Below, piece after piece: positions 5,300 through 64,000 of a DNA stretch of 64,000 bases. The stretch lies in NCBI GenBank assembly GCA_900112915.1, contig FONK01000005.1, positions 1 through 64,000 of the forward strand, written 5' to 3'. The notes beneath the pieces were generated by a model. It was not told the DNA's origin. It was given only the letters and a program-made list of their open reading frames with translations, and did no database searches. Each line of letters opens with the position of its first letter. The stretch's first letter is position 1. The position numbers and the translations under genes are program-made. Source of the stretch: Peptostreptococcaceae bacterium pGA-8. GTDB taxonomy: Bacteria > Bacillota > Clostridia > Peptostreptococcales > Anaerovoracaceae.

Positions 5300-5348
5300 T
5301 TTAGCCCACAAATAAAAGGTCAAGGCTGAATTGATGAAAGGAGATGCG

Positions 5349-7055
5349 ATGAAACCAAGTGTTTCTGTGATTATTCCGGTATACAATGTGGAAAAGTACA
5401 TAGAGAGAATGCTGGAATCCGTTAGAAATCAGACCTTTCAGCAGTGGGAGGCAATCCTTATAAACGATGGTAGTACCGATTCATCTCAGCTGATAATTGA
5501 TAAGTTCACTAAAAAAGACAAACGCTTTCGGTCTTTTTATAAGGAGAATGGAGGGGTAGCATCAGCAAGGAATATGGGAATCGACCTATCGGAGGGAGAT
5601 TATTTGGTATTTTATGATCCTGATGATTTTATACCCCCTAAGGCCTTGCAGCATATGCATAATAGGGCAATTTCATCTCAGGCTGATATGATTGTCGGGG
5701 TTATGGAAGAGATTAGCTTAGGCGAGCATTTGATATATATGCATTCGCAGAAACTGGCAAAGCAAAAAAAAATAAGCTCCTTGGACAAGCATTTTTTTGG
5801 GGCATGGTCCATATGCAACAAGATGTTTTCTGCCGATTTTGTTAAAAGCAATAACCTTAAAATTGAGCCTTTGACCAATGCTGAGGATGGGGTTTTTACA
5901 TTCTCAGCGCTGAAAGCCGGAGCACGGGCAGCAGGCTGTGACCATGTGGCATATAACTATTTGAAGCGGCCATTTTGGACAGAGCCTTCGGCTACACAAA
6001 ATATATCCCCTAAGTATCTAAAAGGACTACTTGCTTCCCATGATAGAATTTTAGAATTAGCAAAAAGTTTAAATAGCAGCCCTGCATATTTGGAAGACCT
6101 ATATATCAGGTTCATGGAAGGTGAAATGATAAATGGATATTATCGCGGATTGTGGCGTGCCGGTGCGGATGGGGCTGATATGCTTGAGGAAATAAAAGAA
6201 AGATATAATGCCTACAGCCTCAACGTAAGTGCAGTAAGGCTTAAAGAGCTTTACGCCAGACATAGAGATATAAAGCTGGAAGAAGGCTTCAAGCCATTGG
6301 ATTATATACAAGAAAATCCTAAGATTTCAGTTATAATTTCACCAAGGCTTAATGAGATAGAGATAAATAGGGTAATCGGAAGTCTCTATAATCAAAGATT
6401 TCTGTATTTTGAAATTCTGATTTCATCAGGAGCCTCAGAGTTAGTTGATGATACCTACTTAAAACGAGGAAATATGAAAGTCTTTGAATCCAAAGAGAAT
6501 TACCTTCAGCAGGGAATTAATAAGGCAAAGGGTGAGTTCATAGTTATCGTCAATGAAGCGGTTATATACACTAAGGAATCCTTGAGAGCGATGGAAGGAG
6601 CCCTTTACAGAAACCGTAAGCTGGATTTTGCAGCTATGAATGTTAAACTATTTGACGGCAATGAAACCAAACCGATTGCCGGCTTAAATGGCGCTTTTGG
6701 ATATTTTGGCAAGGGAAAGGGCGGCAAATCAAACTTAAATCTGGGGGATGCGCTTATGGCTAATAAGCTTATAAGAAAGGCATCTCTCAGCGGCATTACC
6801 CTTACCGGAGACTCTAAAGAAGACTCTCGGCGATTATATGAACAAAAGAACTTCATTAAACTGAGAAAAGGTGCCATGGTTATGGAAAAGAATGCATCCG
6901 CCTTACCAAATGCGGAAAAATCAATTAGCATGACTTTAAAGATCAGCTCAGTGCTTAATTCAAATATAGAAGCAACAGTGAATAAGCTAAAAAGAGTTAT
7001 TACTCGCGAAGATATAAATAACCTCAAAAATACATTTAAGAAAAAGGGCAAGTAG
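5349..7055 (+). CDS. Family 2 glycosyltransferase with a second degenerate GT2-like half
   Basis: Start chosen at ATG 5349 because AAAGGAG (5337-5343) sits 5 bp upstream; in-frame TTG 5331 and ATG 5334 lack such a site. The N-terminal half (about 2-230) is a GT-A glycosyltransferase: SVIIPVYN (6-13), NDGSTD (39-44), and a DPDD metal/donor motif (90-93). After about residue 320 a second stretch (KISVIISPRLNE, SLYNQRF) resembles the start of another GT2 domain but lacks a clear DXD motif. The product is 568 residues, larger than a single GT2. It probably adds a sugar to the polyol-phosphate polymer; donor and acceptor are unknown. It sits between tarJ and a second CDP-polyol transferase. Confidence 0.8.
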   Translation: MKPSVSVIIPVYNVEKYIERMLESVRNQTFQQWEAILINDGSTDSSQLIIDKFTKKDKRFRSFYKENGGVASARNMGIDLSEGDYLVFYDPDDFIPPKALQHMHNRAISSQADMIVGVMEEISLGEHLIYMHSQKLAKQKKISSLDKHFFGAWSICNKMFSADFVKSNNLKIEPLTNAEDGVFTFSALKAGARAAGCDHVAYNYLKRPFWTEPSATQNISPKYLKGLLASHDRILELAKSLNSSPAYLEDLYIRFMEGEMINGYYRGLWRAGADGADMLEEIKERYNAYSLNVSAVRLKELYARHRDIKLEEGFKPLDYIQENPKISVIISPRLNEIEINRVIGSLYNQRFLYFEILISSGASELVDDTYLKRGNMKVFESKENYLQQGINKAKGEFIVIVNEAVIYTKESLRAMEGALYRNRKLDFAAMNVKLFDGNETKPIAGLNGAFGYFGKGKGGKSNLNLGDALMANKLIRKASLSGITLTGDSKEDSRRLYEQKNFIKLRKGAMVMEKNASALPNAEKSISMTLKISSVLNSNIEATVNKLKRVITREDINNLKNTFKKKGK

Positions 7056-51364: not shown

Positions 51365-53071
51365 ATGGACAAGATTAGCGAAAAAATTATATATAGAATA
51401 GTAATAATGATTATAGGAAGCTTCTTAATCATTGAGGCTATATATCTTTTTTCAGGTGATAAATATCAGATTCTTTATGCACCTTCTCTTAGGATTACAA
51501 AATATCTGTTTTTCATAATGTTTTTCACCAGCTGGGGAGCCTTTACCAATTATAGGTGCGCTAATAGAAACATAAAAAATTTGCTGAATTTGCTAAGTAT
51601 CTGCATAGTTGCAGAGGTTATGTTGGATTTTATAAAGGACATTATTGTTTTCGACATAGGCTTAACCAAGGCATTTTGGTACATTGGACTTTTGCCTGAG
51701 TATTTGATTCCATTTTTCTTTTATATGACAGCCCTAGCCCACGGTGAAACAGCTATGACAAAAAAGCTGCACACAAAAATTATATGGTCAATGTCCATTA
51801 CAGCCATTTGCGTGTTGGCTATTTTGACAAACGAGCTTCACCACGGCATTTTTCACTTGAATTACAAAGAAGGCCTTTGGGACCTGACATATAGTTATGA
51901 GCCTGCGTATTTTATCATTTACATATGGGCAGTGCTTTGCTATGCAATGGCGATTATTATTTTGATTATTAAAGCCAGAAACATAGAAACAAAAAAATAT
52001 TTTTGGCTCCCGATAACAATCGGTATAATACTGTTTTGTTATACCTTCGCTTTTGTTGCAGGATTATTTGGACCGGGATATGTAAAAGCTACCGGAGATC
52101 CGGGGCTGTACATATATCTCATTGTTGTAGCTATTCTTGAGGGGCTGTTGCGAAAACGTTTTCTGCCGGTAAACTCCGGATATGGGGAATTTTTCTTAAG
52201 CTCCACAGTCGGAATGGCAATTGAAGATGAAAGTGGTCGGGTCAAGTATAGGACGAGAAACTATGGCAAAAAAGACGTACTTTCAATCGTGCATAAAATA
52301 AATGGGGGGGGTAGAGTAACCTTTGAAGAGAATGTAGAAACCTTGAAATTGCTTCGATATAGCCTTGAGAGGAAGAACAAAGAGCTTACTGTGCAAAAAG
52401 CTGCCCTGGATGCGAAAGCATCTCTGGAAGGCGAGCTTATGGCTGTAGAATATAGAAATAGACTTTATAACGAAGTTGAAGATACTTTGGCAAATAAGTT
52501 CAGTATGGTAAGGGTTCTTATTGATTTGGTAAACAAAGAGCTTAAGGGAAACGATAATCCAAGGTCTGTTAATCAGTTACTGAAAAAAATCAGCGTTTTG
52601 ATTACCTACATAAAGCGAAAATGTAATTTTATTTTGTTGGCAAAGGAAAATAAAAAAATATCGACAGTAGAGGTTGAGCTTGCCATAAGAGAGAGTTTGA
52701 CTAGCATTGAAACTCTGGGGATAAATTGTGCCATTATGAATGGTACAGTTGGAGAAAAACTCAGTACAATTGTGGCTATGCTCTTCTTTGATTGGTATGA
52801 AGAACTCGTGGAGACCTTTTCCTATGCAGAGGTTGACTCTTTTGCCGTAACCTTCTTGAAGGATGCGGATGGCTATGTTAAACTGACAGCATTTCTTGAT
52901 GCAGCCGGTAGCGATAAAAGTGGAAAAAATCCAATTCAAATGAAGTTCTCCCATGCTTTGGTATCCAGAGCCAAGGACTATGGAGGGATTATTAAAAGTC
53001 ACTATGAGGGCAATTCATACATATATTCCATAGCGATGAGAGATAATATGGAGGGAAATGATGTTTTATAG
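51365..53071 (+). CDS. 7TM sensor protein with degenerate histidine-kinase-like C-terminus
   Basis: A 568-residue protein. Seven or eight membrane helices (to about residue 265) resemble the N-terminal 7TM region of some histidine kinases. A coiled-coil segment follows (~320-370), then a ~190-residue C-terminal region whose layout suggests a kinase dimerisation and ATPase fold, but the Asn (N) box and Gly-rich (G) boxes are not recognisable. It may therefore be a pseudokinase receptor that works through the true kinase encoded next, which it overlaps by 14 bp. The ligand is unknown. GGTG precedes its ATG. Confidence 0.65.
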   Translation: MDKISEKIIYRIVIMIIGSFLIIEAIYLFSGDKYQILYAPSLRITKYLFFIMFFTSWGAFTNYRCANRNIKNLLNLLSICIVAEVMLDFIKDIIVFDIGLTKAFWYIGLLPEYLIPFFFYMTALAHGETAMTKKLHTKIIWSMSITAICVLAILTNELHHGIFHLNYKEGLWDLTYSYEPAYFIIYIWAVLCYAMAIIILIIKARNIETKKYFWLPITIGIILFCYTFAFVAGLFGPGYVKATGDPGLYIYLIVVAILEGLLRKRFLPVNSGYGEFFLSSTVGMAIEDESGRVKYRTRNYGKKDVLSIVHKINGGGRVTFEENVETLKLLRYSLERKNKELTVQKAALDAKASLEGELMAVEYRNRLYNEVEDTLANKFSMVRVLIDLVNKELKGNDNPRSVNQLLKKISVLITYIKRKCNFILLAKENKKISTVEVELAIRESLTSIETLGINCAIMNGTVGEKLSTIVAMLFFDWYEELVETFSYAEVDSFAVTFLKDADGYVKLTAFLDAAGSDKSGKNPIQMKFSHALVSRAKDYGGIIKSHYEGNSYIYSIAMRDNMEGNDVL

Positions 53072-55315: not shown

Positions 55316-55543
55316 ATGAAACATTCTTTATTAGTAAAAATTCTGTCGGTATTCCTATCTATTGCGATTGTAATTACACTTATACCCGGTAATTTTGCAA
55401 TTGCAGCAGACGGTTTAGAGACGGTTTCTGACAATGAAGAAATTAAAAATGCTGATATCCATCAGCAAGAAGACAATGAAAATGTTAAGAGCAATGTTGA
55501 TGCGGAAGCGATTTCGATGCCGGTCAAGAATTCACAGATGTAA
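55316..55543 (+). CDS. 5' fragment (signal peptide) of the frameshifted InlB-repeat surface protein
   Basis: Start chosen at ATG 55316, with AAGGGAG about 6 bp upstream; ATG 55298 precedes that site. The 75-residue frame encodes a signal peptide (KHSLLVKILSVFLSIAIVITL, cleavage expected after FAIAA) and an acidic mature N-terminus, then stops at TAA 55541. From 55501 a different frame encodes SDFDAGQEFTDVSDNGVAVF, plausible continuation of the same protein, so a one-base deletion (or two-base insertion) near 55500-55515 splits the gene. No homopolymer is present there. Confidence 0.75.
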   Translation: MKHSLLVKILSVFLSIAIVITLIPGNFAIAADGLETVSDNEEIKNADIHQQEDNENVKSNVDAEAISMPVKNSQM

Positions 55544-55605: not shown

Positions 55606-58600
55606 ATGGTTTTGAGGTCAGTTTCAAAGAAAAAAGCCATCAGGATTGCAGATAAATCTGTTAAGGATACTGTTGAAGATGCAATTGGTGTAGATATTAG
55701 CTTTATTGATGACAATGGAAATGAAATTGAGCCCAAGGATGGTCAACATGTGGATGTTTCTCTTTCATTAAATAAAGATTTAAAAGGAAGCAGCTTTAAA
55801 GTAATTCATCAGAAGGATAACGGCAAAACCGAGATTATTTCTTCCGATGCAAATTCTGCCGGAGCAAATTTTGCAACAGGCGCCTTTTCTATTTACATAA
55901 TAGGCGGAGAGACTGCAATTGCAACCTATAATTTTTATGATACAGATAATAATAAAATCATAAGCACCCAGAGAGTTAAAAATGGAGACAACCTTGTAAA
56001 GCCTAAAACTCCATCTAAGCCTGGATTCAAGTTTACGGGATGGGCAACCGCCCCTTATGCACAAACTCCGGATTTTAAAGGTTTTGGTGTGCAGAATAAT
56101 GTAGCAGAAGCCACAGTTTCTGTTTATCCTGTCTTCAAAGAAATCCATTATGTTTTCTTTATGGATAGTGTTGGAAAAGATGCTAACCCAAGCAGAATTA
56201 TCTTCACTAAAGAGGGAATCCATGGAGCAGATCTATCTGTCAGTGATGTAGTAGTTCCTCTTGATTCAACAAAGAAGGTTATAAGCTGGCATAAAGACAG
56301 CAACTTGAGTGCGGAAAGCAAAGTAGATAAGGTTACATTGGATAGTGAAAATGTAACTATATATCCTAATATTAAAGAGGGTCATTACTTGACTTTTGAT
56401 ACCGGCGAAGGTGCAAGCTATCTTATGCCTCAGTTTGTTGTTGCCGGAGATAAAACACAGGAACCGAGTCCGCCAAAAAGATCGGGATATGATTTTCAGG
56501 GATGGTCAACGGATAAAAATGGAAGCGTTAATTATGACTTTAATGAAACCTTAAATATCGGAAAAACTATTTATGCCGTATGGAGGGCAAAGGAAAATAC
56601 TAAGTACACTGTTGTAATATGGAAGCAGTCGGTAAATGATAAAAAAGAATTTAGCGATAATCAGAAAACCTATGATTATGCTGAATCCTTCGAGAGAACT
56701 GCCAATACAGGTGCTGATGTGGAACCCTCACATTCGGATCAGCACAAGGACTACATGGGATTTCACTATAACCCTAATAATTCCAAGGCGGTAACTGTTA
56801 GAGGTGACGGATCTACAATTCTCAATGTTTATTATGATAGGAATTTGTTGACATTGAATTTCTATCAATCTTTGAATGGAAATTGGGAGAAATGGAATAC
56901 TATGGTTGGACTATATGGTCAGACCTTAGCTCAGAACAACTATGTTTGGCCGGAAACAAATGATTATTGGCAGGAGCTTAATTTAGAAACAGGGGCAGTA
57001 AGCAAAGGACTTACTTTCTTAGATGCTTTTTTGTTTGATGATCTGGATGCAATCGCTGCAAACTATCCCAAAGATACATTGAATATAGGGACTACCAGGA
57101 AAAATACCGGCATGTTTAACATTAGACATTATAAACAGACAGCGGATGGAAGCTATTCTGATGCTGCTGCTAATGAGACGAAGACGAATGGAGGTCGTTT
57201 CACATTTTCCGATAAATATAATGGGTTTACAATAAAGTCATATAAAATAGGTGATCAAGGTGAGCGTGTTGATACAACTGCCGGAGTTAGCGTAAAGTAT
57301 CGCGATAATTTACATGTTTACTACGAACGAAATCGTTACAATTTAACCTTCTACAATCATGATTCTTATGATACGGAGCATGAAAAAAAGGTTCTATTTG
57401 AGGAGCAGCTCGATCAATATAATTATACTCCTGAGCGTCCTGCCAATCTGCCATCTGACTTTAAATTTGTCGGATGGTTTAAGGATAAGGCATTAACTAA
57501 GGAATTTGACTTTAAGACTGAAGTAATGCCGGCAGCCGGGCTGACAGTTTACACAAAATGGCAGGCGCCGATTTACAAGGGAAAAATTCATTTAACCATA
57601 GATGCAAATGGTGATACGAGACTTATTAAAATCCCATATGGCACTAATATTAACGAAAATTATATGCCGACAGTGAAGTCTCATGATGGAAAAATCATAC
57701 AGTCCGGAACACCTGGTACAACAATTACCATTCCGGAAGGTAATGACTGGGCAGGCTGGTCAACTAAAACAGAGGATGGAAAGCTTATTAAGCACAATTT
57801 TGATAATCAAATTTATGATGATATTGAGCTATATCCTTACTATATTAATAAAATTAAGCATGATGTAAAATATGTTACTTCACCGGGCAGTGGAGCTGTT
57901 ACGGATAAGAAGATATATGCAGAAGGTTCTTTTGCAGATGTACAGCCTTCATATTCTGTAGATGCACCTGAAGGTAAGGTTTTCTTATGCTGGAATGATA
58001 AAGAAGATCTTAGTGGAGAAGATTATTATCCGGAAGATAAAATAAAGGTAAGTTCAAGTTTAACTTTATACGCTAAATACGGTGATAAAGTTAAAAATAC
58101 AAAGCTTACATATAAGTCAAACTATCCTGAAGCTTTGGCAGCCAATGCAGAAAAGCTGCAGGAAATAAATGGAACAACAGATTTGAGCAATAACAGTGTT
58201 TTCTCACTTTATTCTTTAGAAGCGGCAGGCTTTAACAATGCTGCTGTTTTAAATGAATACTATTTCGCCGGTTGGAAGGACTCTAATACCGGAAAGCTTT
58301 ACAATCCCGATGATAAGGTTGATATTGACAATGCAACTGAGAATGTATTAGAAGCTCAGTGGGAAAAGAGAAGGGATTTAAAAATCATTATTACAGGTAA
58401 AAGGGCAGACGTAATGTATACCGGAAAAACCCAATCTGTTGAAGGTTATGAGGCTAAATTTGAGCTTGCCGGAGCAGCAATTTCAAATGTACCGGGTGTT
58501 GTATTAAATACGACACAGACAAAAGCAGAAGGCAAAAATGTAGGCACCTATAACCAGAACCTGACCAAAGAACAATTTACTGTAACCGGAAATGATGTTA

Positions 58601-59271
58601 GAAAGTATAAAATCACCCTTGAAGTTACAGATGGAAAGCTGACGATTAAGCCGGCTAAATTGATCGTTAATACAAAGGGTAGGACAGACATTTACAATGG
58701 CAAACCGCTTACCTGCGACGAAGGTGAAATTCTAGGACTTGTCAATGGAGAAAGGGCAGAATTAAAATGCACAGGATCTCAGACATATGATGCCAAAATC
58801 GAAATTACAACAGTCGGCGGTATCTTTACATATGATGGAAGGGAACACGGTGCGAAGGTGACAGTACCTGAATTGCCGGAAGGATATACCTTGAAGGTAG
58901 CAAGTTCAGATGCCAAGGCTATTGATGCTACAGGAGAATATGGCATTGAAGCTAAGTGTGATAATCTTGTGATTGAAAATGCCGCAGGTGAAGATGTAAC
59001 TGATAACCTAAATATTAAGTTCGTTAATGGTAAAATTGTAATCAACCCGGCAGAACTGTTAATTGAAACTCCGGATGCAAAGAAAATATATGATGGAAAA
59101 CCTCTTACAAAAGAGTCAAATTACAAATTGCTTGAAAAGGTCGGAGCCCTTACGATAGAAAAGAAAAACACAGTTAATACAGGGGATAATAACCCCTTTG
59201 CAGCATTTGTAAAGCTGCTGTTAATATCAGTAATAGGCTTACTGGGTACGCTATATCTTAAAAAACGCTAA
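55606..59271 (+). CDS. InlB-repeat (Flg_new) surface adhesin, body separated from its signal peptide
   Basis: The readable frame begins at 55501, before the first ATG at 55606, and runs 1,221 residues from that ATG. Several Listeria-Bacteroides repeat (InlB B-repeat/Flg_new) units occur, marked by PGFKFTGWA, SGYDFQGWSTDKNG, DFKFVGWFKDKALTKEF and EYYFAGWKD. Two or three MBG-like beta domains follow (YTGKTQSVEGYEA, YNGKPLTCDEGEI, YDGREHGAKVTVP, YDGKPLTKES). The C-terminus has VNTGDNNPF, a hydrophobic helix and KKR, like a cell-wall sorting signal but without LPxTG. As a stand-alone frame it has no export signal. Likely role: cell-surface adhesion. Confidence 0.8.
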   Translation: MVLRSVSKKKAIRIADKSVKDTVEDAIGVDISFIDDNGNEIEPKDGQHVDVSLSLNKDLKGSSFKVIHQKDNGKTEIISSDANSAGANFATGAFSIYIIGGETAIATYNFYDTDNNKIISTQRVKNGDNLVKPKTPSKPGFKFTGWATAPYAQTPDFKGFGVQNNVAEATVSVYPVFKEIHYVFFMDSVGKDANPSRIIFTKEGIHGADLSVSDVVVPLDSTKKVISWHKDSNLSAESKVDKVTLDSENVTIYPNIKEGHYLTFDTGEGASYLMPQFVVAGDKTQEPSPPKRSGYDFQGWSTDKNGSVNYDFNETLNIGKTIYAVWRAKENTKYTVVIWKQSVNDKKEFSDNQKTYDYAESFERTANTGADVEPSHSDQHKDYMGFHYNPNNSKAVTVRGDGSTILNVYYDRNLLTLNFYQSLNGNWEKWNTMVGLYGQTLAQNNYVWPETNDYWQELNLETGAVSKGLTFLDAFLFDDLDAIAANYPKDTLNIGTTRKNTGMFNIRHYKQTADGSYSDAAANETKTNGGRFTFSDKYNGFTIKSYKIGDQGERVDTTAGVSVKYRDNLHVYYERNRYNLTFYNHDSYDTEHEKKVLFEEQLDQYNYTPERPANLPSDFKFVGWFKDKALTKEFDFKTEVMPAAGLTVYTKWQAPIYKGKIHLTIDANGDTRLIKIPYGTNINENYMPTVKSHDGKIIQSGTPGTTITIPEGNDWAGWSTKTEDGKLIKHNFDNQIYDDIELYPYYINKIKHDVKYVTSPGSGAVTDKKIYAEGSFADVQPSYSVDAPEGKVFLCWNDKEDLSGEDYYPEDKIKVSSSLTLYAKYGDKVKNTKLTYKSNYPEALAANAEKLQEINGTTDLSNNSVFSLYSLEAAGFNNAAVLNEYYFAGWKDSNTGKLYNPDDKVDIDNATENVLEAQWEKRRDLKIIITGKRADVMYTGKTQSVEGYEAKFELAGAAISNVPGVVLNTTQTKAEGKNVGTYNQNLTKEQFTVTGNDVRKYKITLEVTDGKLTIKPAKLIVNTKGRTDIYNGKPLTCDEGEILGLVNGERAELKCTGSQTYDAKIEITTVGGIFTYDGREHGAKVTVPELPEGYTLKVASSDAKAIDATGEYGIEAKCDNLVIENAAGEDVTDNLNIKFVNGKIVINPAELLIETPDAKKIYDGKPLTKESNYKLLEKVGALTIEKKNTVNTGDNNPFAAFVKLLLISVIGLLGTLYLKKR

Positions 59272-59389: not shown

Positions 59390-60013
59390 ATGAAAAATAT
59401 TTTTGAAAAGACAAAGACATTCATAAAGGAAAACAAAGCTAAAACGGCAATTACATTAGCATGTGCCATATTGCTTGTTCCTTTGTTAGTCTATGGGATA
59501 ATCAAAACAATTCCTGAAGATACTGCTTCAACAGCAAATTCCGGAAAAGAAGTTACTGCGGTAGCCGATGTTAAGACAGATAAGAAGAAAGAAACTTCAC
59601 AGTCTGACTCAAGCACTACATCGACAGTAAATAAGTTGAGTTCGAAGGATTCGGCTGCTAAGACACCAAGTAAATCAAACACAAGCTCGAATTCAAGCTC
59701 AAGTTCTTCTAGCACAACTGCTCCAAAGAAGAAGGAATGGGTAGTTGATAGAAAGGCGTATGATGAAACAAAAAGTGTGCCTGTGTACGAAGATGTAGAT
59801 GTGTATAATTTGTACGCTACTAACAGAGAGACAGGAGTAGAAGAATTGCTTGGTAAGTATTATACATACGCTGATACATTTGCTGCTATGGAAGCTATAG
59901 ATAACAACAAATACGTAAATGTCGCGTATGAATTAAATTACGAAACAAAACTTGTTAGAACTGACACACAAGTAATTCATCATCCGGAAGAAGGACACTG
60001 GGAATACAAGTAA
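59390..60013 (+). CDS. Secreted or anchored Ser-rich hypothetical protein
   Basis: A 207-residue protein with a basic N-terminus, one membrane/signal helix (ITLACAILLVPLLVYGII, ~22-39), a Ser/Thr/Lys-rich linker with a run of Ser residues (~95-110), and a C-terminal ~90-residue part rich in Tyr, Val and charged residues (WVVDRKAYDETKSVPVYEDV, HHPEEGHWEYK). That ending resembles short tail motifs of clostridial surface proteins, but no domain is recognised. AGGAGA precedes the start. A terminator follows at 60029. It sits between two adhesin genes and may be an accessory surface protein. Confidence 0.7.
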   Translation: MKNIFEKTKTFIKENKAKTAITLACAILLVPLLVYGIIKTIPEDTASTANSGKEVTAVADVKTDKKKETSQSDSSTTSTVNKLSSKDSAAKTPSKSNTSSNSSSSSSSTTAPKKKEWVVDRKAYDETKSVPVYEDVDVYNLYATNRETGVEELLGKYYTYADTFAAMEAIDNNKYVNVAYELNYETKLVRTDTQVIHHPEEGHWEYK

Positions 60014-60084: not shown

Positions 60085-60606
60085 ATGAAAACAAAAGCAA
60101 AAAGTAGACTACTTGCTCTGGTTATGGCTTTTGCGATGGTCGTTGGTCCATTTATGAGTGTTGCAAACGCCATGGAAAACGAACAAGCAAGACCATTGCT
60201 TTTAGAAGACCAAGTCGAAGTCAAAATAGAAAAGGCAGAAAATGGTTCTGTTAAATTCTGCAAAGACGGCAAGACTATTGAAGACACGAGTCTAATGGTC
60301 GACAAAGGTGAGAAAGTAGTCTTAGAAGTAAAAGCAAACGAAGATTACGAGCTTGAAAAATTAGAGTCTAAGACTGCAGACGAAACAGAAAAGCTCGAAG
60401 TAAAAGACGACAAGATTGAGTTAACTATTTTAGAAGATATTGTTATTAGCTCAAAATTCAAGGCTGTCAAAGTCGAAGAAGAGCAGAAGACAGAACAACG
60501 CAAGACTACTGACAACAAGCAAGAAACACAACCTGTCAAAGAAGAAAAAAAGTTGAAGAAAACAAGAGCGAAGCAAAAGAAGATGCTAAAGCAGCAGTTA
60601 ATTTGA
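60085..60606 (+). CDS. 5' part of a SpaA-type adhesin, split by a poly-A frameshift
   Basis: A 173-residue frame with AAAGGA before the ATG. It encodes a signal peptide (SRLLALVMAFAMVVGPFMSV, cleavage after ANA), an InlB/Big-like beta region (VEVKIEKAENGSVKFCKDGK) and a charged Lys/Glu/Thr linker. The final ~18 residues (KLKKTRAKQKKMLKQQLI) are unlike the rest: they arise after the A7 run at 60545-60551. With one more A, the frame would read VEENKSEAKEDAKAAVNLMP and join the frame that begins at 60603. The two frames are one gene. Confidence 0.75.
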   Translation: MKTKAKSRLLALVMAFAMVVGPFMSVANAMENEQARPLLLEDQVEVKIEKAENGSVKFCKDGKTIEDTSLMVDKGEKVVLEVKANEDYELEKLESKTADETEKLEVKDDKIELTILEDIVISSKFKAVKVEEEQKTEQRKTTDNKQETQPVKEEKKLKKTRAKQKKMLKQQLI

Positions 60607-62774
60607 TGCCTTCGAAATCAGAAGAAGAGCAAGCCACAACTACAGTAGAGCAGTACTTAAAGTCAAATGTAAACTCTCAGTATGCGAATGTAAAGTCTTT
60701 TAAGATTGCGGGCTCTATGACTATTGCTCCTACTATGGCAACAGCAGACACTACATCGTTAGACGATTTATGGGCAGAACAAAACATAGATAAGTTCAAG
60801 AGTGCAGGTTATTCTACTGTAGCATTATATGATGTTGACAAAGACTCTGCTTACTATGTTGCGTACGTGCAGTCAGACATCACAGATGCTAAGTTAGTTC
60901 AAGCTTTAGCAGCAAAGAACAACACGAACGCTGAACTTAGAAAAGATGTTATTTACGAAAATGGAATAGCGTATGTCCCAAAGAAATATGACCCTAACAA
61001 CGACACAAGAATGCAGTTGCTTTATGCTACTTCAGACAATTCTGAAGCTAAGACAGAAGTAACAGTTAAAAACAATAATGTTGAAGGTGACTTTATAGAA
61101 AATCTTATTGTCACATCAAAGCTTGATAGTAATTTTGTTAAGTTTAATATTACAAAAGGTAATACAGAATTAGATTATTACGACATTAAGTCTTTGAAGA
61201 TTAACGGCAAAGAAGAAGTAAATAATCTAAGCTTTTGGGCTATCAATGACTCTACTATTATCATAAATGGCGTACCGGCTTCAATCAATAAAGTAGAAAT
61301 TGAACTAGCGAAAGAAACTATCTTAATAAAAGCAGGTGCTCCAGCGTGGTATACTTCACCCGTTATGACACTCCCAGGTACTTGGGAATTTGGTCATGAG
61401 CCACGAGTAAATGAAGTTATTAAGATATTTAATACTCATAATACATACTACGGCAACAGCCAAGGTGGAAGAACAGGTTACACGTACGGCGCGTCAACTC
61501 ACTGGATGAATGCAGGTACTGTGCATACAGCGATAGCACACGTAGCGTTAGGTTGGAAGGATGCTCCCCTTGATGACCTAGACAGATTTACTATAGCGTC
61601 TTTAAGAACTACTACTATCCCAGCTCAGACTGTAGGCGATATCAAGATACCATCAATCCCTGAATTTTCAATGGTTTGTTCTCACATTGGTGTAAATGCA
61701 AACTTAGACTATCAATCAGGCTATAATAATGGAGCTAAATCTGACCCTGGTCTTAGAGTAAGAATTATCGCTAAGTATGGGAACAAGCTTTTATGCGCTT
61801 TCGTATCACCAACTGCTATGACACAAGCGGGTGCGGGTTTGTTTATGATTCAATATCAGTCTGGTGGTAAAGCATACGTCCAAAAGACTTCTGCCAATCC
61901 TGACGCAGAAGCTTTAACTAAGTTATGCCCACTTTACACTTTAGCTGGTGCTAAGTACACATTCTATAAAGACAAAGAATGCAAAACTTCTATAGTGACA
62001 GTTACAACTGATAAAGCTGGCAAGAGCAACACAATCAAAGTCGCTTCTGGAACATATTATGTAAAAGAAACCAAAGCGCCATTTGGTTATTTGTTAGACA
62101 AAAAAGTACACGAAGTTACAGTAAAAAGTGGTCAAACCGTAAAAGTAGCTGTTAAAGACAGACCTATGCTTGACCCGATAAGAGCTGTTGTACAAAAAAC
62201 AGTTGAAGAAGGCGCTGATAAGAACTTGTCCGTAAAAGGTGCTGAATTTGAATTTAAGTACTATCCTACTCTCGGAGATATCACAAAATCTGAAGCTATA
62301 AGGACTTGGAATTTTGCCGCTGATGACAACGGTTTTGTAAGATACGACGATAGAAATAAGATTTCAGGTGACGAATTATTCAAATACAAAGACGCACCTA
62401 TAGGCATAATTGGTACTTATACTATCAAAGAAACAAAGGCTCCAAAGGGTCTTGCATTAGATGAAAGAACAATTTATGTAAGAATCGCACCTAATGCTAA
62501 AGGCACTCGCACTATTAGAACATTCAGTGAAAGTGCAACATTTACAAATCCAGTTGAAATAAAAGATGGTGAAGCTCTATTCGATCATATAGAAAAAACA
62601 CAAAAAGTAAATCTTCACCTGCAGAAAGTAGACGCTGAAACAAAACAGTCGGTACCGCAAGGATATGGCACGTTAGAAGGTGCAATTTACTCTGTATTCA
62701 GATTTGACCCTCTTGCGGCAGAAGACGAATTTGTAGCAGATATTGTTACAGACGCAGCCGGTAAAGCAGTATAA
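60603..62774 (+). CDS. 3' part of a SpaA-type adhesin with prealbumin-like repeats, C-terminally truncated
   Basis: The frame is really open from just after the A7 run at 60545, but its first start is the TTG/ATG at 60603-60606; no ribosome site precedes it. The 723 residues comprise an N-terminal unknown region, a central part with WYTSPVMTLPGTWEFG, and at least three SpaA/Cna-B-like domains marked by YYVKETKAPFGYLLD and YTIKETKAPKGLALDE, often isopeptide-crosslinked. The third repeat (LEGAIYSVFRFDP) breaks off at TAA 62772 right after GKAV; no cell-wall anchor follows. Codon choice differs from neighbours (more GAC, GCG, ACG), suggesting transfer. Confidence 0.78.
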   Translation: MMPSKSEEEQATTTVEQYLKSNVNSQYANVKSFKIAGSMTIAPTMATADTTSLDDLWAEQNIDKFKSAGYSTVALYDVDKDSAYYVAYVQSDITDAKLVQALAAKNNTNAELRKDVIYENGIAYVPKKYDPNNDTRMQLLYATSDNSEAKTEVTVKNNNVEGDFIENLIVTSKLDSNFVKFNITKGNTELDYYDIKSLKINGKEEVNNLSFWAINDSTIIINGVPASINKVEIELAKETILIKAGAPAWYTSPVMTLPGTWEFGHEPRVNEVIKIFNTHNTYYGNSQGGRTGYTYGASTHWMNAGTVHTAIAHVALGWKDAPLDDLDRFTIASLRTTTIPAQTVGDIKIPSIPEFSMVCSHIGVNANLDYQSGYNNGAKSDPGLRVRIIAKYGNKLLCAFVSPTAMTQAGAGLFMIQYQSGGKAYVQKTSANPDAEALTKLCPLYTLAGAKYTFYKDKECKTSIVTVTTDKAGKSNTIKVASGTYYVKETKAPFGYLLDKKVHEVTVKSGQTVKVAVKDRPMLDPIRAVVQKTVEEGADKNLSVKGAEFEFKYYPTLGDITKSEAIRTWNFAADDNGFVRYDDRNKISGDELFKYKDAPIGIIGTYTIKETKAPKGLALDERTIYVRIAPNAKGTRTIRTFSESATFTNPVEIKDGEALFDHIEKTQKVNLHLQKVDAETKQSVPQGYGTLEGAIYSVFRFDPLAAEDEFVADIVTDAAGKAV

Positions 62775-62997
62775 AAAAATACCAGCCTTTAGCTAAAAGC
62801 AGAAAATTTAATGTGTTATCTACCATAACCATAAGTATATTCCTACACCACCTTTTAACAATAATTTTCCCTAAAATACTGTACAAAAGTCTGTATTTTT
62901 ATTCAACTAAAGTAATTATAATATGAATAACAGATGTGGTACTCGGATGTATCAACTAGCGTTATAATTACACTTTATATGAAGGGAGTTTAAAAAA
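62775..62997. other. Intergenic region upstream of the VWA adhesin gene
   Basis: The 223 bp after the truncated adhesin contain no recognisable continuation of its third SpaA repeat or of a sorting signal in any frame. TATAAT at 62963-62968, without a clear -35, is the best promoter candidate for the next gene. Confidence 0.4.
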
Positions 62998-64000
62998 ATG
63001 AAGCTTAAGACTAAATTCAGAGAACGTATATGGGCATATGTTCTTGCAGTTACATTAGTAATTGGGAATTTTGGATTTGCAATGAATCCGTTATCCTCTT
63101 ATGCTCTTGAAAATGAATCCGGCATTGATAGTGAAGAAACTACAATAGCCAAGGATGATACAGATTTATCATTAAAGGATGATACGGAGGTGATTGACGA
63201 GAATCAAGCTATAAATAATTTTGCAGATGAGGATACAAAAGAGCAAATAACAGATTCTCCTGCCAATGGGCAATATGAAGAAGATGAGCCTCTTAATGTT
63301 GAAGAAAATCCCGACAATCTGTCCGGGCCTGTAAAGGCGGATGGAACCATTAATTTAGGGAAAATACAGGGTGAAGTTATAGAGAGCAAGCCGGTTTCAA
63401 GAGGTCTACGAGGTTTAATGAGAACATCTTCGGCAGATATGTGGATACAAACTTTGATTGGCCCTGATGCATTGGAAAGTGGTGCATTGGCTGAGCCCGG
63501 TTCAGTTAAAGCATATAAACCGATTATTGAAGAAGATCCAACCGTTGCAAACAAATGGAATGTTAAGATGCTTGTAGCTGCAAGAGATTCCATTAAGACA
63601 TCCAGGATAGTACTTGTGATGGATGTATCTACCAGCATGACTTATAATGATAGGATTGTAAAAGCAAAAGAAGCAGCTCATGCCTTTGTAAATAAAGTTC
63701 TTACAGAGTCAAGTGCTACCCAAATTGCTTTAGTAACCTTTGGTAAGGATACTAGGACTTTGCAGGGATTTACCAACAATAAGGGCGAATTAAATGCAGC
63801 CATTGATTCTATTGATATAAAATCAAACACAGGCACTTTTACACAGGCAGGTATTAAGCACGCCCAAGGACTACTGGACAGTGTTTCGGCAGATAAGGAA
63901 TATATGGTGCTATTATCTGATGGAGAACCTACATACAGCTATGGACTGGATAACCCGGATAATTATTTAATGGCAGGAGGTCCCGGGAAATATGACAATG
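62998..64000 (+). CDS. Secreted von Willebrand A-domain adhesin (3' end beyond the window)
   Basis: ATG 62998 is preceded by AAGGGAG (62982-62988). The frame is open to base 64000 and runs off the window. The first ~37 residues are a signal peptide (RIWAYVLAVTLVIGNFGFAM, cleavage near SYALE). An acidic, low-complexity stretch (~40-125) follows, then a VWA domain from ~200 with the MIDAS motif DVSTSMT, TGTF for the second metal loop, and LLSDGEPTY. Comparable proteins are pilus-tip or surface adhesins of Gram-positives, often with SpaA repeats and a sorting signal beyond the visible part. It is the third large surface protein in this region. Confidence 0.85.
   Translation, partial: MKLKTKFRERIWAYVLAVTLVIGNFGFAMNPLSSYALENESGIDSEETTIAKDDTDLSLKDDTEVIDENQAINNFADEDTKEQITDSPANGQYEEDEPLNVEENPDNLSGPVKADGTINLGKIQGEVIESKPVSRGLRGLMRTSSADMWIQTLIGPDALESGALAEPGSVKAYKPIIEEDPTVANKWNVKMLVAARDSIKTSRIVLVMDVSTSMTYNDRIVKAKEAAHAFVNKVLTESSATQIALVTFGKDTRTLQGFTNNKGELNAAIDSIDIKSNTGTFTQAGIKHAQGLLDSVSADKEYMVLLSDGEPTYSYGLDNPDNYLMAGGPGKYDN

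Follow-up and report, generated by a model that had tools for sequence, protein, structure and literature searches.

A frame-split and truncated SpaA-type adhesin gene in Peptostreptococcaceae bacterium pGA-8, probably a decaying pseudogene

Two reading frames at a short adenine run

The window analysed here comprises the first 64,000 nucleotides of contig FONK01000005.1 of Peptostreptococcaceae bacterium pGA-8, and all features in it are given on the forward strand. Close to its right end lie two consecutive open reading frames that together resemble a single surface adhesin gene. ORF1 (60085–60606, 173 aa) encodes a signal peptide, a beta-type domain and a Lys/Glu-rich linker, followed by about 17 out-of-frame residues past an A run, as indicated by its translation, codon score and homologue alignment. 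According to its translation, Pfam matches, codon score and alignments, ORF2 (60603–62774, 723 aa) encodes an adhesin head and SpaA domains, is truncated in the third SpaA domain and lacks a sorting signal. The SpaA (prealbumin-like) domains, a feature of sortase-anchored SpaA/CnaB-stalk adhesins, are matched by PF17802 in two stretches (1.2e-23); the best match covers 61938–62162 (ORF2 residues 445–519 of 722), and SpaA is the only Pfam family matched by the window protein. The signal peptide and the SpaA domains are not in the same frame, as ORF1 and ORF2 are offset by one position.

The original prediction located the frame change at the AAAAAAA run at 60545–60551, and both the sequence and codon statistics confirm this position. 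Codon-usage scoring of short segments, with 28 ORFs of the window as the training set, indicates that the ORF1 frame is coding until the run (+0.63 versus -0.71 at 60300–60480), and that the SpaA frame is coding directly past it (60552–60606, +0.75 versus -0.14 for the ORF1 frame). Because the codon scores swap frames there, with the change located at about 60550–60564, the frame change must lie at or adjoin the A7 run. The earlier figure of about 895 residues for a joined protein is arithmetically correct as well.

The A7 run itself is ordinary and short, and such runs are not in excess. The window contains 32 A7 matches, compared to a mean of 57.1 in 100 shuffled sequences, every one of which held at least 32, and coding-strand runs of at least seven A occur 13 times in 42,876 nt of ORFs. 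Elsewhere in the window, an A9 run, longer than the A7 run, is found at 5764–5772 inside a long ORF (5331–7055), and the longest G run of the window, a G8 at 52304–52311, is located inside the ORF at 51365–53071. By length, this G8 run is a better candidate for phase variation than the A7 run.

At the junction of the two frames, the ORF1 stop codon and an ATG in the SpaA frame share bases in a TGATG (60604–60608), which raises the question of re-initiation. Simulated frame breaks produce such an overlap in 5.7% of cases (626 of 11,052 positions in window ORFs), and the Shine-Dalgarno energy at the ORF2 ATG is weak (-1.1, compared to -5.9 for ORF1, while the median over 30 listed starts is -7.9). 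As the overlap can thus arise by chance and the product would not be exported, re-initiation was rejected as an explanation and is kept as the source of a side product only.

The adhesin gene is preceded by a gene for a small secreted or lipoprotein-like protein (59390–60013). Such a gene, whose product there ends in HPEQGHWEYR or a similar sequence, also lies 5' of a SpaA adhesin gene at four related loci (L068, L070, L071 and L072). In two of these loci (L068 and L071) the gene pair lies beside mobile-element-like genes, which we take to be ArdC-, MobV- and Fic-like, and the small gene and the SpaA adhesin may constitute an adhesin module conserved on mobile elements. Among named genomes, the closest counterpart of an 874-aa protein encoded in the window comes from a MAG of Candidatus Allocopromorpha (79%). 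On the other side, an intact VWA surface protein gene recognised by Pfam (1705 aa) begins at 62998 and extends past the window end at 64000.

Homologues of both halves and the missing 3' end

The best single-frame homologue is a SpaA adhesin encoded on the plasmid pFMC of Finegoldia magna ATCC 29328 (WP_012289958, L074), to which both halves align with their order kept. This protein shares the succession of signal peptide, beta domain, charged linker, head and SpaA stalk; it differs in that it is in a single frame over the first 1973 residues, the part that was read, and has 12 SpaA stretches, whereas the window gene is split and truncated. The signal peptide and beta part of ORF1 align to its N-terminus with a score of 121, which is reached by none of 500 segment-wise shuffles (maximum 88), and the beta domain alone scores 84, which is reached by none of 1000 shuffles (maximum 52). 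ORF2 aligns to its head with 27% identity over 445 columns (2.5e-22), and the head and the window protein are likewise 27% identical over winC 59–434. Since a single F. magna protein covers both halves, the split part of the earlier proposal of a split SpaA-type adhesin with possible phase variation or slippage holds; the switch part is not supported.

Homologues of the head were found in 8 of the 296 family genomes (E<=0.01) and in 5 of the 393 order genomes (E<=0.001), with the own genome counted in each. Five of the seven non-self matches in family genomes were read (L063–L067), and in all of them a single frame spans signal peptide, linker and head, although contig ends cut two of the five. 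The two weakest matches were left out: the one in G177 is interrupted by stops, and the stretch in G286 shows housekeeping genes. Thus, the linker break is absent from all six head homologues read (L063–L067 and L074), and the frame break is not a conserved feature of these relatives of the kind that programmed frameshifting would predict. No close homologue of the head was found in the family and order genomes searched, and the own genome contains no second copy of the locus DNA. In addition, a scan of IMG/VR and GTDB contigs confirmed no homologue of the ORF, and plasmid and phage records gave 10 and 6 weak matches, respectively.

The SpaA part has closer relatives in three adhesins of anaerobes (L005, L069 and L070), which are 37–43% identical through this region, and of which L070 also has the same small gene upstream. 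They differ from the window gene in having another N-terminal head, and in being intact, with a C-terminal LPXTG-like motif (TG(D)), a hydrophobic stretch and a charged tail, none of which is present in ORF2. In the alignments to all three, ORF2 stops at the same endpoint, position 62774, inside the third SpaA domain, leaving 424 (L005), 666 (L069) and 452 (L070) residues of the homologues unmatched. Where these continue for 424–666 residues, the window has a non-coding stretch (62775–62997), in which all three frames score negative from 62775 to 62995. Querying the own genome with the L005 C-terminus brought up no detached 3' remainder; a match to a 431-aa C-terminal stretch of L005 at C4:51.9 kb was rejected as the missing half, as it belongs to an independent, intact SpaA/T-Q gene of 527 aa. 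The thioester/SpaA adhesins L068 and L071 resemble the locus in their small upstream gene, signal peptide and SpaA domains, but L068 also matches TED_2 (below the cut-off) and T-Q domains, while the window protein matches SpaA only.

As ORF2 is truncated and no remainder was found in the genome, a product joined at the A run would end in the middle of a domain, and would, judging from the sequence, also lack any anchor. The thioester adhesin TIE of pLS20 is described as functional without a sorting signal (PMC8092201), so that a missing anchor alone does not prove lost function. The stronger argument for such a loss is that the cut falls within a domain. Compared to its intact homologues, the gene carries two inactivating lesions of the kind that define pseudogenes, the frame break and the 3' truncation.

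Other interrupted surface genes in the genome

A second broken surface gene lies upstream in the window, at 55.3 kb, and encodes a protein with List_Bact repeats and an NTGD tail. It is split after the signal peptide, which is encoded at 55316–55543, while the main part occupies 55606–59271 in a frame that is open from 55501, past a stop at 55498. The two frames overlap by 43 nt, and the longest run in or beside the overlap is TTT. Its intact relatives L226 and L227 have the signal peptide, an acidic linker and the following domain in one frame. L226 (G104:C20, around 84781) lies in a frame that stays open for 11,858 codons.

Furthermore, three surface genes on other contigs are interrupted by in-frame stops, namely a TAA in C10, a TGA in C9 and a TAA in C2. 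The C10 gene (L109, 1159–3561) encodes a surface protein with a PKTGD anchor, and many relatives were found for the part downstream of its TAA. The C9 (L079, 7751–11497) and C2 (L078, 5452–7326) genes are paralogues, and each is open where the other stops: the C9 sequences before and after the TGA align continuously to the open C2 frame (scores of 228 and 600, compared to shuffle maxima of 70 and 77), and C9 is open at the position of the C2 TAA. The alignment begins at residue 63, and the start of the C2 gene therefore appears to be swapped for unrelated sequence, which is presumably glutaredoxin-like.

Overall, reading of the surface genes led to 13 being judged open and 5 interrupted (5 of 18). 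Twelve of these came from 16 anchor matches (11 open, one interrupted, four unjudged), and six from other comparisons. Two genes at contig ends (C19:51099 and C22:16) and one cut by the stretch (the C11:32.5 kb gene) were left out of the judgement, and two further candidates (C11:2087 and C22:23824) were discarded because they did not look like surface genes. A frame-switch scan of 198,795 nt, judged by eye, revealed no clear break outside surface genes; many of its rows reflected usual gene overlaps or antisense echoes, minus-strand rows were left out, and of five rows read in translation four were ordinary overlaps, as judged by eye and from known family starts.

Decay weighed against switching, recoding and error

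Taken together, the locus is best explained as a decaying pseudogene of a SpaA/CnaB-stalk adhesin that has at least two lesions and is probably non-functional. The ancestral gene would have encoded a signal peptide, a beta domain, a Lys/Glu-rich linker, an adhesive head, a SpaA stalk and a sorting signal in one frame. Codon statistics and homologues show that a one-position frame change at the short A run in the linker parts export from the adhesin. The homologues also show that the gene has lost its end, starting midway through the third SpaA domain, presumably in a separate event. Ribosomes starting at 60085 are expected to yield a short secreted fragment ending at 60606, whereas any adhesin part produced through weak re-initiation at the TGATG would lack a signal peptide and presumably not leave the cell. 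The adhesin gene would be one of several surface genes in the genome with differing inactivating lesions. The absence of internal stops from the 723 codons of the SpaA frame counts against decay, and it implies either recent damage or continuing selection on the product. The gene resembles the frame-transition pseudogenes found with GeneTack, in which singleton breaks lack a conserved recoding signal, and no difference from these as described was seen; in PMC3711429, singleton frame breaks are put down to indels or sequencing errors, which fits the decay verdict.

Among the alternatives, a wrongly determined length of the A run, through sequencing or assembly error, is unlikely, but less so than the others. 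It would mean that the real gene has one frame through the linker and is still truncated at 62774. Homopolymers are typical error sites, and the frame is intact on both sides; however, other A runs of 7–9 in the window sit in long open frames, homopolymer errors do not account for the in-frame stops and the homopolymer-free break in other surface genes, and the frame-switch scan, judged by eye, gave no clear break elsewhere than in surface genes. Slipped-strand phase variation, in which replication slippage alters the run length and switches the adhesin on and off, is less probable still. This is a surface gene broken at a mononucleotide run shortly after its export signal, and the A run of Campylobacter pgp1 is 9, 8 and 7 nt long in 20, 830 and 9 of 859 genomes (PMC5133587), so that with runs varying between 7 and 9 the mutation itself is plausible. 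Against this stand a run that is short and no longer than chance would give (A7, 32 seen and 57 expected), an 'on' product that would still be cut mid-domain, a neighbouring broken gene without a repeat at its break, and the lack of a second allele, as neither a genome copy nor a close head homologue was found. A related proposal by analogy is that the two-part gene might still be used, with slippage during replication or on the ribosome causing a head-and-stalk adhesin without anchor, like that of pLS20, to be exported by a small fraction of cells or ribosomes, while the majority of cells would lack it; along with other split surface genes, this gene would belong to a bet-hedging surface repertoire. 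This is similarly improbable.

A still smaller chance is given to -1 ribosomal frameshifting at A_AAA_AAG (60546–60552), which would yield some joined protein. The heptamer is exactly in the -1 slippery register, a -1 shift enters the SpaA frame, and the same sequence forms the E. coli dnaX shift site and is very shifty in that species (PMC5009743). However, the heptamer is common, as the listed ORFs of the window contain 10 in register, nine of them elsewhere, and no stimulator accompanies it: the fold of the 89 nt downstream has a z-score of -0.69 and is equalled by 53 of 200 shuffles, while the upstream Shine-Dalgarno duplex energy is +1.5. In E. coli, one lysine tRNA reads both AAA and AAG (PMC5009743), whereas ARAGORN finds a tRNA-Lys gene with anticodon ttt and a separate one with ctt in this genome, from which we infer that slipping is lowered by the separate CUU tRNA. 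In addition, no head homologue shares the break. RNA polymerase slippage on the A run, giving a mixed mRNA population, is the least credible of all. It is known on A9 in bacteria, but selection against slippage is evident at runs of nine, in a large proportion of 108 genomes (PMC1088944), and the A7 run is shorter. A transcriptome-wide survey in Buchnera uncovered no transcription error by which a frame was restored (PMC5574713).

Phase variation and transcriptional slippage thus receive no positive support, as A7 is short and such runs are not enriched, the product is truncated either way, and other surface genes are broken without repeats. The fixed pseudogene, which the original prediction had named as an outcome that would refute it, fits best. 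The locus also calls for caution, since an A run at a frame break suggests a switch, while the other end of the gene and its neighbours show plain decay. Several inactivated surface-protein genes lie beside intact ones in this genome, and could be traced across strains as surface-repertoire turnover.
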